Source of the DNA: Bordetella sp. H567
Lineage (GTDB): Bacteria > Pseudomonadota > Gammaproteobacteria > Burkholderiales > Burkholderiaceae_B
NCBI RefSeq assembly: GCF_001704295.1
Contig: NZ_CP012334.1
Coordinates: forward strand, 3,794,084 to 3,858,083
Length of the DNA: 64,000 bases
Direction: 5' to 3'
Shown piece by piece: positions 41,496 to 47,533 of this stretch (positions within the stretch are counted from its first letter, which is position 1; the number at the start of each line of letters is the position of its first letter). The translations under genes and the position numbers were made by a program. The notes under the pieces are model-generated. The model saw only the letters and a list, made by a program, of their open reading frames with translations. It was not told the DNA's origin and searched no databases.

Positions 41496-41507
41496 TCATA
41501 TATATGA
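41496..41507. promoter_or_regulatory. Perfect 12-bp palindrome, candidate operator of the suy-like cluster
   Basis: TCATATATATGA is its own reverse complement; symmetry extends to 18 bp (AA-G...T-TT flanks) with one mismatched pair. It ends 5 nt before the -35 hexamer, a typical activator position or an upstream repressor site. No cognate regulator gene is adjacent. Confidence 0.6.
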
Positions 41508-41512
41508 TTTGG

Positions 41513-41541
41513 TTGACATGGATGAAATTCGAAAATAAGAT
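41513..41541 (+). promoter_or_regulatory. Sigma70 promoter of the suy-like cluster
   Basis: TTGACA (41513-41518), a 17-nt spacer and TAAGAT (41536-41541). This is the best sigma70 match in the window, with a consensus -35 and ideal spacing. Transcription would begin near 41548, giving a leader of about 60 nt before the small-subunit ATG at 41611. Confidence 0.7.
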
Positions 41542-41610
41542 CGTCAACACGATCAACAGCGGGCACGGCGCCGGGACGCAGGCGACCGTGCCGCCACCAG
41601 GAGGAAACTC

Positions 41611-41892
41611 ATGATTCATGCCGTATTGCACGATGCCAAGGACACGGTGGCCGTGGCCGTGGTGGAAGGCATCACCGCGGGCACCGATCTCAATGCCTGG
41701 ATCATGGATGAAGACAAGATCATCCAGGTCAAGGCCAAGCAGGACATTCCCATCGGGCACAAGGTGGCGCTGAAGGACATGAAGACCGGCGATACCGTCT
41801 TCAAGTACGGCGTCGATATCGGCAAGGTCGTCGCCGATATCCAGGCAGGCCAGCACGCGCACGTCCACAACATCAAGACCAAGCGCTGGTAA
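41611..41892 (+). CDS. suyA: UxaA-family lyase small subunit (SAF domain), probable sulfolactate sulfo-lyase alpha
   Basis: A 93-residue SAF-domain protein ([55 protein letters not shown]). It matches the N-terminal part of altronate/galactarate dehydratases as a separate subunit. It is followed 44 nt later by the large subunit. In sulfolactate-degrading bacteria SuyA has exactly this size and partner. The ATG has a strong CAGGAGGAAA. The symbol rests on architecture plus the downstream dehydrogenase pair; a split dehydratase for another hydroxyacid is the alternative. Confidence 0.75.
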
Positions 41893-41936
41893 GCCGCCGC
41901 GTCCTTCTCCATTCCCGCCCGCCCAAGGAACCACTC

Positions 41937-43112
41937 ATGGCTGTCATCTCCGCATCCACCACCTTCCGCGGCTATCGCCGCGACAACGGCCGCGTCGGCG
42001 TACGCAATCACGTGATCGTGCTGCCCGTGGACGATATCTCCAACGCCGCCGCCGAAGCGGTGGCCAACAACATCAAGGGCACGATGGCCCTGCCCCACCC
42101 CTATGGCCGGCTGCAGTTCGGCGAAGACCTGGAACTGCACTTCCGCACGCTGATCGGCACGGGGTCCAATCCCAACGTCGCGGCGGTGGTGGTCATCGGC
42201 ATCGAGGAAGGCTGGACCAAGCGCATCGTCGACGCGATCGCCAAGACCGGCAAGCCGGTGGCGGGGTTCTCCATCGAACTGCACGGCGACCATGACACCA
42301 TCATGCGCGCCTCCAAGGCCGCCAAGGAATTCGTGCACTACGCCACGTCGCTGCAGCGCACGGAATGCCCGATCAGCGACCTGTGGGTCTCGACCAAGTG
42401 CGGTGAATCGGATACGACGTCCGGCTGTGGCGCCAACCCCACCGTGGGCAATGCCTTCGACAAGCTGTACCCGCTGGGCACCACGCTGGTGTTCGGCGAA
42501 ACCTCCGAACTGACGGGCGGCGAACATATCGTGGCGGAACGCTGCGCCAACGACAAGGTGCGCGAGCGCTTCATGTTCATGTTCGACCGCTACCAGGCCA
42601 TGATCGACCGCTGGAAGACCAGCGATCTGTCGGAATCGCAGCCCACCAAGGGGAATATCGCCGGCGGCCTGACGACGATCGAGGAAAAAGCCATGGGCAA
42701 CATCCAGAAGATCGGCAAGAAATGCCGCATCGACGGGGTGCTGGACAAGGCGGAAATCCCGGATCACTCGGGCCTGTGGTTCATGGATTCGTCGTCGGCC
42801 GCCGCCGAAATGGTCACGCTGTGCGCGGCCTCCGGGTACGCGGTGCACTTCTTCCCCACCGGCCAGGGCAACGTGATCGGCAACCCCATCCTGCCGGTCA
42901 TCAAGATCTGCGCCAACCCACGCACGGTGCGCACCATGTCCGAGCACGTCGACGTCGATACCTCGGGCCTGCTGCAGCGCGAAATGGATCTGGACCAGGC
43001 GGGCGACAAGTTGCTGGAATGCATGCTCGCCACCGTCAACGGCCGCTGGACCGCCGCCGAGGCCCTGGGCCATCGCGAGTTCGTGCTGACGCGCCTGTTC
43101 GAAAGCGCCTGA
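41937..43112 (+). CDS. suyB: UxaA-family lyase large subunit, probable (2R)-sulfolactate sulfo-lyase beta
   Basis: A 391-residue protein of the UxaA/GarD C-terminal family. It starts [20 protein letters not shown] (the RxDGRxGVRN signature) and contains [60 protein letters not shown] (Cys-containing metal-site region), [20 protein letters not shown] and [20 protein letters not shown]. SuyAB cleaves (2R)-3-sulfolactate to pyruvate and sulfite. The case for SuyB over altronate dehydratase is the split two-gene form and co-linearity with slcC-like and comC-like dehydrogenase genes; it is not proven by sequence alone. Confidence 0.75.
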
Positions 43113-43306
43113 CGTTCGTAGACACGCCTGTCTGAAAACGCCTGAGCGTCGTTCAGACACGCCTGTTCCCAGGCTGAGGTTCAGCCCGCCGGCATGCAGC
43201 GGCCGGCATTCCTGGCGTACCGGCCCCCAGATGGCCGGACGCCGCCACGCCCGTCAGGACGCCCGCGCGTCCGGCGACGTTCCCCCTTGTCGGAGGAGAC
43301 AACCCC

Positions 43307-44326
43307 ATGAAACGCGTCATCACGGATCTGCCGGTTTCGGCTGCCCGTCGTTCCACCCTGGGCGTGCTCGGCGCCGCCGGGCTGACCCTGCTCACACCGT
43401 TTTCCAAGGCCTGGGCGCAAGGCGACAAGTGGCCGCCCAAACCCATCAACTACGTGGTCCCCTTCCCACCCGGCGGCCTGACCGACGTGGCGGCGCGGCA
43501 GGTCGCCAAGGCCGTGTCGTCTTCCGAAGGCTGGAATGTGGTGGTCGAGAACAAGCCGGGCGGCAGCGCGAATATCGGCGCGGCCTATGTGGCGCGCGCC
43601 GAAGCCGACGGATGCACCTGGCTGGCCATGACGATGTCCCACGCCGCCAACGCCACGCTGTTCCAAGGCAAGGCGGGCTATGACCTGATGCAGGACCTGA
43701 CGCCGCTGGCCGGCCTGGCGTCGTCGTCCATGATGATCGTGGTCAATCCGAAGAGCGACATCAAGACGCTGGCCGACCTGACGAAAGCCGCCCAGGCCAA
43801 GCAGGGCGGGCTGTCCGCCGGATCCAGCGGCAACGGCACGCCGCCGCACCTGACGCTGGCGCTGTACCAGCAGCTGACCGGCACCAAGTTGCTGCACGTC
43901 CCGTACAAGGGCGGCGCGCCCTCGCTGACGGACCTGATCGGCGGCCAGCTGGACGTGATTTTTTCCAATTACCCGGAATCCCTGGCCTATGTGAAAGGCG
44001 GACAGCTGCGCGCGCTGGCGGTGACCACCAAGGAGCGCAGCCCGGACCTGCCCGACGTACCCACCGTGGCGGAAGCCGGCCTGCCGGACCTGGTTGTCGA
44101 GAACTTCACCGGCGTCATGGCGCCCGCGCACACCGATCCCAAGCTGATCGCGCGCATCGGCAAGGCCATCGAGACGCAGATACGGCAGCCGGAAATGCAG
44201 AAGACGCTGACGCAGCTCGGCTTCATCCCGCGGCCACGCGGGCCCGAGGAATTCAAGCAGTACCTGGCGGGCGAAGTCGCGCGCTGGGCCAAGACGATCA
44301 AGCAGGCAAACATCCAGGTGGGATAA
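43307..44326 (+). CDS. Bug/TctC-family solute-binding protein of the suy-like cluster
   Basis: A 339-aa periplasmic receptor. The N-terminus carries a twin-arginine-like signal (SAARRSTLGVLGAAGL, cleavage after AWA). The Bug fold shows INYVVPFPPGGLTDVAARQV, NVVVENKPGGSANIGAAYVA, LLHVPYKGGAPSLTDLIGGQ and LPDVPTVAEAGLPDLV. It has a strong GGAGGAGA ribosome site. In sulfolactate clusters of other bacteria a TTT-type transporter (SlcHFG) is present; this would be the binding component, but the two membrane subunits are absent. Ligand inferred from context. Confidence 0.88.
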   Translation: MKRVITDLPVSAARRSTLGVLGAAGLTLLTPFSKAWAQGDKWPPKPINYVVPFPPGGLTDVAARQVAKAVSSSEGWNVVVENKPGGSANIGAAYVARAEADGCTWLAMTMSHAANATLFQGKAGYDLMQDLTPLAGLASSSMMIVVNPKSDIKTLADLTKAAQAKQGGLSAGSSGNGTPPHLTLALYQQLTGTKLLHVPYKGGAPSLTDLIGGQLDVIFSNYPESLAYVKGGQLRALAVTTKERSPDLPDVPTVAEAGLPDLVVENFTGVMAPAHTDPKLIARIGKAIETQIRQPEMQKTLTQLGFIPRPRGPEEFKQYLAGEVARWAKTIKQANIQVG

Positions 44327-44470
44327 AGCACCACGCCCCCATCGACATTACTGCCTGTCCGTTCACTGTTTCTCAACCAGTAGCGCCCATCCTCCCTGCA
44401 GCTCCCGCCCCGCATCAACGGTGCCGCCAGATCGGGGACGCCGCGGATCCGGCTCCGCCGGTCCGCCAGC

Positions 44471-44515
44471 GTCGCCCCCTTGAGGGGGAAGCGCGCAGCG
44501 CTTCGGGGGTGGGTT
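44471..44515. repeat. Intergenic double-hairpin element (likely dispersed repeat)
   Basis: Two adjacent imperfect dyads: CCCCC/GGGGG around 44475-44488, then AAGCGC/GCGCTT around 44489-44503, followed by GGGGGT. I recognise this kind of sequence as a dispersed intergenic element of Bordetella/Achromobacter chromosomes; only this copy is in the window. It lies between the Bug gene and the hydroxyacid dehydrogenase gene and may modulate expression of the downstream half of the cluster. Confidence 0.5.
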
Positions 44516-44531
44516 TCTCTTGGATCGCCCT

Positions 44532-45461
44532 ATGCATATCGTCATTTCCGAGTTCATGGACACCGGCGCGGTGGACCTGCTGCGGCGGGACTTCCAGGTC
44601 CTGTACGAACCCGACCTGGTGGACCGGCGCGCCGATCTGCTCAAGGCGGTGGCCGAGGCCGACGCCCTGATCGTCCGCAACCGTACCCGCGTCGATGGCG
44701 AGGTGCTGGCCGCCGGCCGGCGCCTGCGAGCGGTCGGCCGGCTGGGCGTGGGCCTGGACAACATCGATGTGCCGGCCTGCCGCGAACGCGGCATCCACGT
44801 GCTACCGGCCACCGGCGCCAATGCGCGTGCCGTGGCCGAATACGTGGTGACCAGCGTGCTGGTCCTCACGCGCGGCGTCTATCACAACAGCAGCCAGGTG
44901 GCGCAAGGCGCCTGGCCGCGCACGGCGATGTCCAACGGCCGCGAAGTCCATGGCCGCACGCTGGGCGTCGTGGGTTTCGGCGGAATCGGCCGGATGACGG
45001 CGCGCCTGGCGCAGGGCCTGGATATGCGGGTGGTGGCCTACGACCCCATGCTGCCCGGTACCGACCCGGTGTGGCGGGAAACGCAGGTCGAGCCCGTGAG
45101 CCTGGATGCGCTGCTGGCGGGCGCCGATGCGGTGACGCTGCACATTCCGTTGACGGAGGGCACGCGCAAGCTGATCGACGGGCCGCGTATCGCCGCGATG
45201 AAGGACGGGGCCGTGCTGGTCAATACCGCGCGCGGCGGCATCGTCGACGAAGCGGCGCTGGCGCAGGCCTTGCGCGACGGCAAGCTGCGCGGCGCGGCAA
45301 TGGACGTGTTCGGTGAAGAGCCTTTGCCCGCGGGCAGTCCGCTGGCCGGCGCGCCCAATCTGATCCTGACGCCGCACGTGGCGGGGTTGAGCGTGGAGGC
45401 CAACACCCGTGTCTCCGACATGGTTGCCCAGCGCGTGGCGGCCGTATTGAAGCAAGGGTGA
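44532..45461 (+). CDS. slcC: D-2-hydroxyacid dehydrogenase, probable (S)-sulfolactate dehydrogenase
   Basis: NAD-dependent dehydrogenase of the SerA/2-hydroxyacid family, 309 aa. The Rossmann motif is LGVVGFGGIGRMTARLAQ; catalytic residues are Arg in LVNTARGGIVDEAAL, Glu in FGEEPLP, and His in LTPHVAGLSVEANTR. In Chromohalobacter a member of this family (SlcC) oxidises (S)-sulfolactate to sulfopyruvate. The cluster also has an Ldh2-type gene (ComC-like), the pair that racemises sulfolactate. ATG at 44532 is preferred to a TTG four codons upstream. Substrate is inference. Confidence 0.78.
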   Translation: MHIVISEFMDTGAVDLLRRDFQVLYEPDLVDRRADLLKAVAEADALIVRNRTRVDGEVLAAGRRLRAVGRLGVGLDNIDVPACRERGIHVLPATGANARAVAEYVVTSVLVLTRGVYHNSSQVAQGAWPRTAMSNGREVHGRTLGVVGFGGIGRMTARLAQGLDMRVVAYDPMLPGTDPVWRETQVEPVSLDALLAGADAVTLHIPLTEGTRKLIDGPRIAAMKDGAVLVNTARGGIVDEAALAQALRDGKLRGAAMDVFGEEPLPAGSPLAGAPNLILTPHVAGLSVEANTRVSDMVAQRVAAVLKQG

Positions 45462-45612
45462 TCGCGGCGGGGTATCGCACGAGCCATCGCGCGTGCCCAT
45501 CGCACCAGATCGCGCATCGCGTAATCACGACGGCCCAAGGCAAGGGCCAATGGCAACGCCCGCTGGGCCCCGGGGCCGCTGCGGCCGTCGAACGACTTCA
45601 GGAAACACGAAC

Positions 45613-46620
45613 ATGGCAACCATGCATCTCGATGCTCTGTATGACCTGGCCGCGGCCGCACTGCAAGGCGCCGGCGCGAGCGCGCGTATGGCCGCCGACA
45701 CGGCACGCGCACTGATCTACGCGGAGGGCCAGGGCATCGCCTCGCACGGCGTCTCGCGCGTGCCGTTCTATGCCACCCATCTGCGCAACGGACGCGCCGA
45801 CGGCCAGGCCGTGGCCAGCGTCATCCGGGAACGCGGCGGCGCGGTGCTGGTGGATGCGGCCGATGGCCTGGCCTTCCCGGCCTGCGCCCTGGCCATCGAG
45901 CAGGCCATCGCACGCGCGCGCGAGCACGGCGTCGCCTTCGCCGGCGTCACCAACAGCCATCACTTCGGCGTCGCGGCCTATCATCTGGACGCGGTGGCGC
46001 GGGCCGGCATGGTGGGCCTGGCCATGGGAAATTCACCGTCCGCCATGCCGGCATGGGGCGGCAAGCGCGCGCTGTTCGGCACCAACCCCATCGCCGCCGC
46101 CTTCCCGCGCCGCGACGCGCTGCCCCTGGTGATCGACTTGTCGCTGTCCGAAGTGGCGCGCGGCAAACTGATGGTGGCGGCGCGCGAAGGCAAGGAGATC
46201 CCCCTGGGCTGGGCGCTGGATGCGCAGGGCAGGCCCACCACGGACCCCAAGGCGGGCCTGGCGGGCAGCATGCTGCCCATGGGGGGCGCCAAGGGCGCCA
46301 TGCTGGCCTTGACCGTCGAACTGCTGGCCTGCGCATTGACGGGCGCCCATTTCGGTTTCGAAGCGGACTCCTTCTTCACCGAGCAAGGCAACCGCGCGCG
46401 CATCGGCCAGGCCTTCCTGGTCATCGATCCGGGTGCGCTGGCCGGGCGCGAGGCCTACCTAGAACGCGTGGAAACGCTGGTATCGGCTATGCTCGCGGAC
46501 GAAGGCGTACGGCTGCCCGGCCAACGCCGCGCCGCGCTTGAACAGACGGCGCGAGAACAGGGCGTCAACGTGCCCGACGCCTTGCTGGCGGAAATGAACC
46601 AGCTGGCGGGACGGGCCTGA
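45613..46620 (+). CDS. comC: Ldh2/malate-type dehydrogenase, probable (R)-sulfolactate dehydrogenase
   Basis: NAD(P)-dependent enzyme of the malate/L-sulfolactate dehydrogenase (Ldh2, DUF-free NADPH-binding) family, 335 aa. Diagnostic blocks are AEGQGIASHGVSRVPFYATH, GVTNSHHFGVAAYHLDAVAR (catalytic His region), GNSPSAMPAWGGKRALFGTN, PLVIDLSLSEVARGKLMVAA and GAKGAMLALTVELLA. ComC homologues reduce sulfopyruvate to (R)-sulfolactate, the SuyAB substrate. The start follows AGGAAACACGAAC. It lies 151 nt after the slcC-like gene and 13 nt before the next gene. Other family members act on ureidoglycolate or malate, so substrate rests on context. Confidence 0.78.
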   Translation: MATMHLDALYDLAAAALQGAGASARMAADTARALIYAEGQGIASHGVSRVPFYATHLRNGRADGQAVASVIRERGGAVLVDAADGLAFPACALAIEQAIARAREHGVAFAGVTNSHHFGVAAYHLDAVARAGMVGLAMGNSPSAMPAWGGKRALFGTNPIAAAFPRRDALPLVIDLSLSEVARGKLMVAAREGKEIPLGWALDAQGRPTTDPKAGLAGSMLPMGGAKGAMLALTVELLACALTGAHFGFEADSFFTEQGNRARIGQAFLVIDPGALAGREAYLERVETLVSAMLADEGVRLPGQRRAALEQTAREQGVNVPDALLAEMNQLAGRA

Positions 46621-46633
46621 ACCGGAGACAGTC

Positions 46634-47533
46634 ATGGCGCAAGCCGGCAAGAACCGTATCGGCATTATTGGCGTGGGCCAGATGGGCCACGGGATCGCGT
46701 TCAACATCGTCAAGGCCGGCTATCCGCTGGTCTTCCTGGACCACCCGGGCAACCAGCCCGTGGACGATCTGCTGGCGCGTGGCGCTGCGCGCGCGAGCAC
46801 GCCCGCCGATGTGGCGCGGCAGGCGGACATGGTCATCCTGTGCGTGACCGGTACGCCGGAGGTAGAGGACGTCCTTTTCAAGGAGGACGGCGTGCTGGCC
46901 GGCATGCGGCCGGGCACGGTGGTGATCGATTGCTCCACCGCCATCCCCTCGTCCACGCTGCGGGTCGCCCAGGCGGTTGAAAAGGCCGGCGGCCTGTTCC
47001 TGGATGCCCCAATGACACGCACGCCCAAGGAGGCCGCCGAGGGGCGGCTGAACCTGATCGTGGGCGGGGACCCCGCCCTGTTCGAGCGCTGCAAGCCGGT
47101 GCTGCAAACCTATGCGGAAAACATCGTGCACGCCGGTCCGATCGGCTCGGGTCACCGCCTGAAGCTGCTGCACAATTACGTGTCGCTGGGGTTTTCGGCG
47201 GTACTGGCCGAAGCCGCGGCCTGCGCCCGGCTGGCCAACGTGGATTCCGCCGTGCTGCTGGAGATCCTGGCCAAGGGCGGCGGCGATGGCGTGGTGCTGG
47301 GGCGCCTGCGCCCCTATATCGAATCCGGCGACACGGCGAACTTCCGCTTTTCCATCGCCAATGCGTTGAAGGACATGGGGTACTACACCACCATGGCCGA
47401 GGAAACCGGCGCGCCCCACGGTACCGCGCAAGCCATCCGCGATACCTATGCCGACGCGAGCCGGGCCGGCATCGCGCAGGCGCCGGTCCCGCAAATCATC
47501 GACTATCTGGCCGGTCCGCCGGCACGGCACTGA
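46634..47533 (+). CDS. Beta-hydroxyacid dehydrogenase (HIBADH/YihU-like)
   Basis: A 299-residue 6-phosphogluconate/3-hydroxyisobutyrate dehydrogenase-fold enzyme. The NAD motif is RIGIIGVGQMGHGIAFNIV, and VVIDCSTAIPSSTLRVAQAV follows. At the substrate loop, where most family members have SGG, this protein has DAPMTRTPKEAAEG with Arg129, like the sulfonate-binding Arg of sulfolactaldehyde reductase YihU (GRTS). The catalytic Lys177 lies in LKLLHNYVSLG; Ser184 is kept, while the YihU Asn is His180. It is the last gene of the cluster and overlaps the convergent DUF455 gene by 38 nt. An organosulfonate aldehyde/alcohol substrate is plausible, not shown. Confidence 0.82.
   Translation: MAQAGKNRIGIIGVGQMGHGIAFNIVKAGYPLVFLDHPGNQPVDDLLARGAARASTPADVARQADMVILCVTGTPEVEDVLFKEDGVLAGMRPGTVVIDCSTAIPSSTLRVAQAVEKAGGLFLDAPMTRTPKEAAEGRLNLIVGGDPALFERCKPVLQTYAENIVHAGPIGSGHRLKLLHNYVSLGFSAVLAEAAACARLANVDSAVLLEILAKGGGDGVVLGRLRPYIESGDTANFRFSIANALKDMGYYTTMAEETGAPHGTAQAIRDTYADASRAGIAQAPVPQIIDYLAGPPARH

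Follow-up and report, generated by a model that had tools for sequence, protein, structure and literature searches.

What does a cluster of six genes degrade when it joins a UxaA-type enzyme split into two subunits to a solitary periplasmic receptor and three dehydrogenases? We addressed this question for positions 41496-47533 of a 64,000-nt stretch of the Bordetella sp. H567 genome (hereafter the window, to which coordinates refer unless another contig is named). The six genes run on the + strand from 41611 to 47533, with intergenic gaps of 44, 194, 193, 151, and 13 bases in gene order, and the list of open reading frames together with Pfam confirms the place, strand and families that a first-pass annotation had given them. 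Moreover, these reading frames are real genes: across five sister species, identity is 93-96% for the large subunit and 80-87% for the last product, a beta-hydroxyacid dehydrogenase. The comparisons presented here make it very probable that the locus is a sulfolactate catabolic operon, whose reactions and stereochemistry we infer from published relatives. The H567 system is a further example of a pathway already known, and its peculiarities, an extra dehydrogenase and a distant regulator, are modest. It adds an (apparently Alcaligenaceae) genus to the probable mineralisers of sulfolactate, which is a breakdown product of sulfosugars and of 2,3-dihydroxypropane-1-sulfonate (DHPS).

The UxaA-type pair and sulfolactate sulfo-lyase

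As expected of the (2R)-sulfolactate sulfo-lyase SuyAB, the enzyme is encoded as separate subunits, a small one of the UxaA N-terminal type and a large one of the UxaA/GarD type. The gene assigned to the small subunit, suyA (41611-41892, + strand, 93 residues), is preceded by a ribosome-binding site, AGGAGG, read directly at 41599-41604 on the same strand. Its product had been described as a SAF-domain protein, and here the first-pass annotation held only in part: the protein gave no Pfam match at E<=0.001 and is not among the four matches of the SAF model in its own genome, but it does match the UxaA N-terminal domain of PDB entry 3k3s (E 6e-13). The large, catalytic subunit, suyB (41937-43112, + strand, 391 residues), carries PF04295 and PF20629. 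In comparison with Cupriavidus pinatubonensis HN-2, SuyB is 86.4% and SuyA 79.6% identical, and the nearest named SuyB relatives among the matches listed belong to Pigmentiphaga (93%), Parapusillimonas (93%), and Achromobacter (92%).

A maximum-likelihood tree of 41 proteins places the H567 large subunit with the SuyB proteins of Cupriavidus, Paracoccus, Sinorhizobium, Methylobacterium, and Rhodococcus with a support of 100/100. A deeper branch (98/86) leaves SuyB, four Variovorax-type proteins and one Haloarcula protein on one side, and on the other twelve proteins with four cysteines plus two Halomarina proteins. The four-cysteine proteins include E. coli UxaA and GarD, a protein from a Sphingomonas L-fucose cluster and three H567 paralogues; this group is defined by its residues, so that its unity is not independent of the residue comparison below, and only E. 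coli UxaA and GarD are of known function, the rest being dehydratases by annotation or likeness. A position beside the altronate or galactarate dehydratases, which the first-pass annotation had named as the outcome contrary to its proposal, is therefore not what the phylogeny gives. Also, the large subunit scores 148.9 bits with the galactarate dehydratase model TIGR03248, below the cut-off of 730.85.

The residues point in the same direction. The superfamily is described as having four conserved cysteines, with sulfolactate sulfo-lyase as the exception (PMC6336799), and the sulfo-lyase is described as Fe2+-dependent (PMC11382572). In our alignment, exactly four columns hold a cysteine in both E. 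coli UxaA and GarD (UxaA 132, 166, 199, and 264). At these columns H567 SuyB has I34, R58, a gap, and C155, three cysteines thus being lost and one kept. In the other SuyB rows the four columns read Ile or Leu, Arg, gap, Cys, and in the Variovorax type Asn or Ala, Arg, gap, Cys; the Haloarcula row reads Y-R-G-C, and the two Halomarina rows, with A-T-T-C and C-C-C-S, depart from both patterns. All of 107 SuyB rows, the named plasmids among them, carry Arg58 and Cys155; this number includes H567 itself and two contigs counted twice (L049=L107 and L052=L121). The combination of Arg58 and Cys155 with loss of the three other cysteines separates SuyB and its nearest relatives from the known dehydratases, and we hypothesize that Arg58, standing at a conserved dehydratase cysteine column, would be a ligand of the sulfonate. 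Literature searches gave no paper for UxaA and, among those listed, none on a GarD structure. Taking together the 100/100 clade, the identity to C. pinatubonensis SuyB and the lost cysteines, the identification of the large subunit as SuyB is upheld.

The family is also well delimited by identity. A search with SuyB in 61 related genomes (E<=1e-60) gave matches in 23 genomes at 25 places, 20 of them at 79-100% identity and five at 34-40%, with none between. Among plasmid matches (316 records), two lie at 80-90%, 11 at 60-80%, and 303 below 60%, and in a 60-row spread of these matches the identity falls from 62% to 40% between rows 3 and 4. Thirteen plasmid records (H61-H73) with at least 58% identity to Paracoccus SuyB are named 'UxaA family hydrolase' in nine cases and 'D-galactarate dehydratase' in one, the other three being nameless; SuyB is thus masked by general annotation names.

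The SlcC- and ComC-like dehydrogenases

Further downstream lie a D-2-hydroxyacid dehydrogenase of the SerA family (44520-45461, + strand, PF00389/PF02826), for which the listed start is TTG at 44520 and ATG at 44532 is the more likely one, and an Ldh2-family dehydrogenase (45613-46620, + strand, PF02615). They had been called slcC-like and comC-like, respectively. Suy-linked proteins of other proteobacterial genera are 53-67% (SlcC) and 47-77% (ComC) identical to them, with one locus adding a 34% copy; for Paracoccus and Methylobacterium the values are 57-58% and 47-48%. The H567 genome itself holds 16 paralogues of the D-2-hydroxyacid dehydrogenase (E<=1e-15), at most 41% identical, and seven of the Ldh2 protein (E<=1e-10), at most 34% identical.

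The Ldh2 tree places the H567 protein with suy-linked ComC, uniting 18 proteobacterial suy-linked rows (94/94), while Rhodococcus ComC falls with the H567 paralogues. The best NCBIfam model of the H567 Ldh2 protein, and of three suy-linked ComC proteins, is L-sulfolactate dehydrogenase (NF040650), with all scores below the cut-off (Paracoccus 193.5, Methylobacterium 163.6, and Rhodococcus 201.6 bits); because the suy-linked proteins of these three genera fail it too, the model is a narrow one. The comC-like assignment therefore stands on tree, identity and linkage. For the slcC-like protein, identity and linkage agree with the assignment but the tree does not settle it at depth, and because its deep fork is open the assignment rests on the first two.

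Comparison with known suy loci

How common is this arrangement? We surveyed the best 80 of at least 590 relatives obtained from a scan of genome contigs, with neighbour genes sought by tblastn within 10 kb. As 30 of these 80 named SuyB loci have under 7 kb on one side, the counts are lower bounds: slcC is found at at least 38 loci, comC at at least 50, both at at least 36, hpsN at at least 13, a putative sulfate exporter at at least nine, and membrane genes of the TctAB type at at least three. One or more of slcC, comC, and hpsN accompany suyB at at least 57 of the 80 loci, and at 42 of the 50 loci with at least 7 kb on both sides. A GntR gene of the suy type is present at at least 65 loci and opposite in strand to suyB at at least 58.

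Of the known systems compared, the closest by sequence is that of C. pinatubonensis, a species for which a route from DHPS through sulfolactate to SuyAB has been published. Plasmid p2 of strain HN-2 carries a LacI regulator, hpsN, hpsO, a major facilitator superfamily (MFS) gene, a gene of the zinc-alcohol-dehydrogenase type at the hpsP position, suyA, suyB, an orphan binding protein of the tripartite tricarboxylate transporter (TTT) class, and transhydrogenase genes. This is the hps-suyAB order described for strain JMP134, which carries hpsRNOUPsuyAB and grows on DHPS (PMC11382572). Like H567, it has an orphan Bug protein directly after suyAB, and no TTT membrane genes are annotated in the stretch. 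Unlike H567, it has hpsN, hpsO, the dehydrogenase at the hpsP position and a LacI-type regulator, whereas SlcC and ComC were not found in the stretch examined. Conversely, the H567 genome gives only one match to HpsN, at 33% identity and presumably HisD, and the HpsN route was rejected for H567 on this ground.

Also close, by description rather than by sequence, is the suyAB-slcC-comC-slcHFG cluster of Chromohalobacter salexigens, a system for which PMC6018796, PMC5812351, and PMC12421959 cite Denger and Cook 2010. It has the same enzyme families and the same logic, a racemase made of two dehydrogenases (Denger and Cook 2010, as cited in PMC6018796 and PMC12421959). In those citations the C. 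salexigens system comes with the TTT importer SlcHFG and with suyR, whereas in H567 the Bug is an orphan and the regulator gene lies far from the operon.

Paracoccus aestuarii, Methylobacterium oryzae, and Sinorhizobium mexicanum share with H567 the presence of suyAB, slcC, and comC on one strand, and the SuyB proteins of the first two are 67-68% identical to that of H567. For S. mexicanum, named as encoding SlcC, ComC, SuyA, and SuyB (PMC12421959), we find all four genes in one locus, and its SuyB and ComC group with the H567 proteins. Unlike H567, these three loci have a putative sulfate exporter nearby and no beta-hydroxyacid dehydrogenase of this kind; also, the Paracoccus locus adds TTT genes and the Methylobacterium locus a dicarboxylate symporter.

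The orphan Bug protein and the proposed pathway

Between suyB and the slcC-like gene lies an orphan Bug/TctC periplasmic binding protein (43307-44326, + strand, PF03401), 50.4% identical to the C. pinatubonensis orphan Bug and a probable sulfolactate receptor. The first-pass annotation had noted the absence of TTT membrane subunits and regarded it as setting this version apart. The absence itself stands: tblastn found no TctAB membrane genes within 10 kb of the locus, and so no importer of the SlcHFG type, the one named for TTT uptake in R. nubinhibens and C. salexigens (PMC5812351). Elsewhere in the genome TctA has eight matches, of which one is a short fragment. However, it is no mark of distinction, since C. 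pinatubonensis is alike in this respect. The orphan Bug as a novelty was likewise ruled out, given that C. pinatubonensis has one at the same position after suyAB. A Bug of the H567/Cupriavidus type (at least 49% identical, same strand) accompanies at least 17 of the 80 named SuyB loci with a TctAB match at one of those, which makes it a common variant, and orphan Bugs in general are an abundant known class (PMC5812351).

In the pathway that we propose, the Bug protein would capture sulfolactate in the periplasm for a membrane partner encoded elsewhere. The SlcC- and ComC-like enzymes, with opposite stereospecificity, would interconvert (S)- and (R)-sulfolactate via sulfopyruvate, and SuyAB would eliminate sulfite from (R)-sulfolactate to leave pyruvate for growth. 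The sulfite, finally, would be oxidised or exported by the products of genes located elsewhere.

The additional beta-hydroxyacid dehydrogenase

The last gene (46634-47533, + strand), which begins 13 bases past comC, encodes a beta-hydroxyacid dehydrogenase with PF03446 (NAD_binding_2) and PF14833 (NAD_binding_11). It stands beside comC in 6/6 species of the genus examined, once in each at E<=1e-80. A search of 14 SuyB loci from related genomes of other genera did not find it, nor did one of the best 80 named SuyB loci, some of which are short. The claim that this gene distinguishes the locus, as a genus-specific addition to the cluster, is borne out by both sets of observations.

Outside the suy context, relatives at E<=1e-75 were found in at least 13 of 300 genomes of the order, in a scan that scored at most seven candidates per genome and so may have missed some. 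Eleven of these genomes belong to other genera and together give 12 places at 50-68% identity, and suyB is in none of the 12 stretches around them. Ten neighbouring proteins, from six of the 12 loci, were scanned, and the genes nearby are of aldehyde dehydrogenase, SMP-30/gluconolactonase-like, isopropylmalate-dehydrogenase-like, MFS or thiolase type. In one genome (G008, L169:4733-11347), a 64% relative has as neighbours genes for an aldehyde dehydrogenase, a D-2-hydroxyacid dehydrogenase, a Bug protein and a GntR regulator, on another contig than the suy locus of that genome.

The gene had been called YihU-like, which is correct at the family level but not for a closer match. The protein is 30% identical to YihU and 29% to GarR, and it scores 154.5 bits with the YihU sulfolactaldehyde reductase model NF012005, the equivalog cut-off being 348, and 161.3 bits with TIGR01505, again below the cut-off. 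Its best-scoring NCBIfam model is that of tartronate semialdehyde reductase, with a score below cut-off. YihU Lys171, Arg123, and Ser178 are kept, whereas Asn174 is replaced by His. An argument for sulfonate specificity from Arg123 and Ser178 was dropped: 12/12 relatives examined outside the genus keep both, with no suyB in the stretches around them, and for this reason these residues are not pointers to sulfonate.

Alternative readings and contrary evidence

Could the UxaA pair instead be a heteromeric sugar-acid dehydratase, for example an L-fuconate dehydratase as proposed for Paraburkholderia mimosarum, with the dehydrogenases serving a sugar-acid pathway? The superfamily is the same, a heteromeric UxaA-type L-fuconate dehydratase has been proposed (PMC6336799), and in Sphingomonas a split pair lies beside fucP and an L-rhamnose-mutarotase-like gene. 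However, the Sphingomonas protein has the four cysteines that the H567 protein does not, the 98/86 branch parts SuyB, the Variovorax-type proteins and the Haloarcula protein from the four-cysteine proteins, and no lactonase, aldolase or sugar kinase is present among the six genes. Tree and cysteine pattern led us to reject this reading of the large subunit, and we consider it highly improbable for the locus. A different possibility, compatible with a sulfolactate operon and overlapping with it in probability, is that the physiological substrate would be DHPS, in place of sulfolactate or in addition to it; the beta-hydroxyacid dehydrogenase would then start the route, and sulfolactate would be an intermediate. 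The fixed position of this gene beside the cluster throughout the genus species examined argues for it, and so does DhpA of Desulfovibrio DF1, a proven DHPS dehydrogenase of the same family, which oxidises DHPS to sulfolactaldehyde ahead of SlaB and SuyAB (PMC6278857); DhpA, like E. coli YihU, belongs to the family of the last H567 gene, and DhpA was likened to it by family only. Moreover, in Rhodococcus koreensis suyAB is accompanied by an aldehyde dehydrogenase and by a beta-hydroxyacid dehydrogenase, a different family member, 27% identical to that of H567. Because DhpA and R. koreensis offer these parallels, a role in DHPS degradation is reasonable, and the H567 enzyme is perhaps, by analogy, a DHPS/sulfolactaldehyde dehydrogenase. 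Nonetheless, the operon lacks an aldehyde dehydrogenase for sulfolactaldehyde (homologues elsewhere are 34-45% identical to the Rhodococcus one), the best-scoring NCBIfam model is the tartronate semialdehyde reductase mentioned above, and the relatives that keep Arg123 and Ser178 have no suyB in their stretches. We thus regard DHPS as an unlikely, if conceivable, substrate. A joint proposal, in which the beta-hydroxyacid dehydrogenase would oxidise DHPS/sulfolactaldehyde and feed SuyAB without HpsN after a recruitment independent of that in Rhodococcus, and in which SuyB Arg58 would bind the sulfonate and so turn a dehydratase fold into a carbon-sulfur lyase, appears doubtful to us as a whole. 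The R. koreensis plasmid (L011:7690-15175) presents in a row suyA, suyB, the aldehyde dehydrogenase, an MFS gene, the beta-hydroxyacid dehydrogenase, a D-2-hydroxyacid dehydrogenase and an Ldh gene, which looks like a complete route from DHPS to pyruvate.

Several observations weigh against the assignment of the locus to sulfolactate. The comparison proteins come from C. pinatubonensis HN-2 and not from the assayed strain JMP134. The H567 ComC scores 219.7 bits with NF040650, whose curated cut-off is 500, and the tree of the D-2-hydroxyacid dehydrogenases, with its deep fork open, does not cleanly part suy-linked from paralogous proteins. The SlcC and ComC of Rhodococcus share just 41% and 36% identity with the H567 proteins and are placed with paralogues or unsurely in the trees. 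A search of the locus gave no exporter of sulfite or sulfate, no sulfite dehydrogenase and no TTT membrane gene. Elsewhere, the genome has a single exporter homologue, of the YeiH type and 32-34% identical to suy-locus exporters, and a single SorA-like homologue, 33-34% identical to the Methylobacterium protein and 40% over 184 residues to that of Paracoccus. Finally, the arginine with one cysteine and the neighbouring genes do not fix the substrate, because a Variovorax-type clade shares the residues and, in Variovorax, has similar neighbours.

This clade (L144:6526-11289; L032, L035, and L036) is 35-40% identical to H567 SuyB and has the arginine and the single cysteine. In Variovorax the flanking genes encode a D-2-hydroxyacid dehydrogenase, which lies on the opposite strand, an orphan Bug, and an Ldh protein whose best NCBIfam model is ureidoglycolate dehydrogenase; possibly, these proteins catalyse another beta-elimination. 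The first-pass annotation had derived organosulfonate catabolism from finding four families together. The pathway is indeed very probable, but the co-occurrence is not specific, and since a Variovorax protein 38% identical to SuyB has nearly the same neighbours, it is the SuyB sequence match that carries the assignment to sulfolactate. In Haloarcula halophila (L185:4637-8168), a split UxaA pair, with a large subunit 34% identical, has a putative sulfate exporter on one side and an Ldh gene on the other; with the arginine and one cysteine at the key columns, it is a possible archaeal sulfonate lyase.

A distant probable regulator and a conserved palindrome

Many other genera encode a GntR protein divergently from suyA. 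No such gene is present near the H567 operon, nor in the ~19 kb around the operon in the five sister species. The closest relative of the suy-linked GntR found in H567 lies at C1:3761217-3762020 (within L058:3185-4021, C1:3761184-3762020), 73.7 kb before suyA and outside the window. It carries a GntR and a UTRA domain, shares 78% identity with the suy-linked GntR of genome G008, and nests among the suy-linked GntR proteins of the same bacterial family in a 12-row group (100/99), in a tree that holds suy-linked GntR proteins with no outgroup of GntR unlinked to suy. Its gene is followed at ~2 kb by one with 64% identity to E. coli GarD.

Ahead of suyA, a palindrome, TCATATATATGA, at 41496-41507 (the sole exact match in the window) is a likely operator for a SuyR-type GntR/UTRA regulator. 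It stands just before the -35 box of a sigma-70-type promoter, TTGACA-17-TAAGAT (41513-41541, + strand), which matches the consensus at 10/12 positions. In an alignment of 11 of 20 orthologous upstream loci, the palindrome is exact in seven and has one mismatch in four; TTGAC of the -35 box is kept in all 11 and the -10 box less strictly. Moreover, with up to three mismatches it occurs in 94/107 suyA upstream regions compared with 3/109 letter-shuffled ones, the 107 being 109 regions minus two slicing artefacts (L100 and L114), with the non-SuyB loci L144 and L056 remaining. The exact palindrome also precedes suyA in C. pinatubonensis and, in H567, the distant GntR gene.

For C. salexigens, PMC6018796 cites a suyR gene as part of the system. 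A literature search, with most subscription journals outside it, found no published operator for the suy GntR, and the mentions of GntR in the excerpts of PMC4334477 are unrelated to suy. By analogy with SuyR, the distant GntR/UTRA regulator probably controls the H567 operon in trans, acting through the palindrome at 41496-41507. The conserved palindrome thus offers a handle on suy regulation, including the case in which regulator and operon lie apart.

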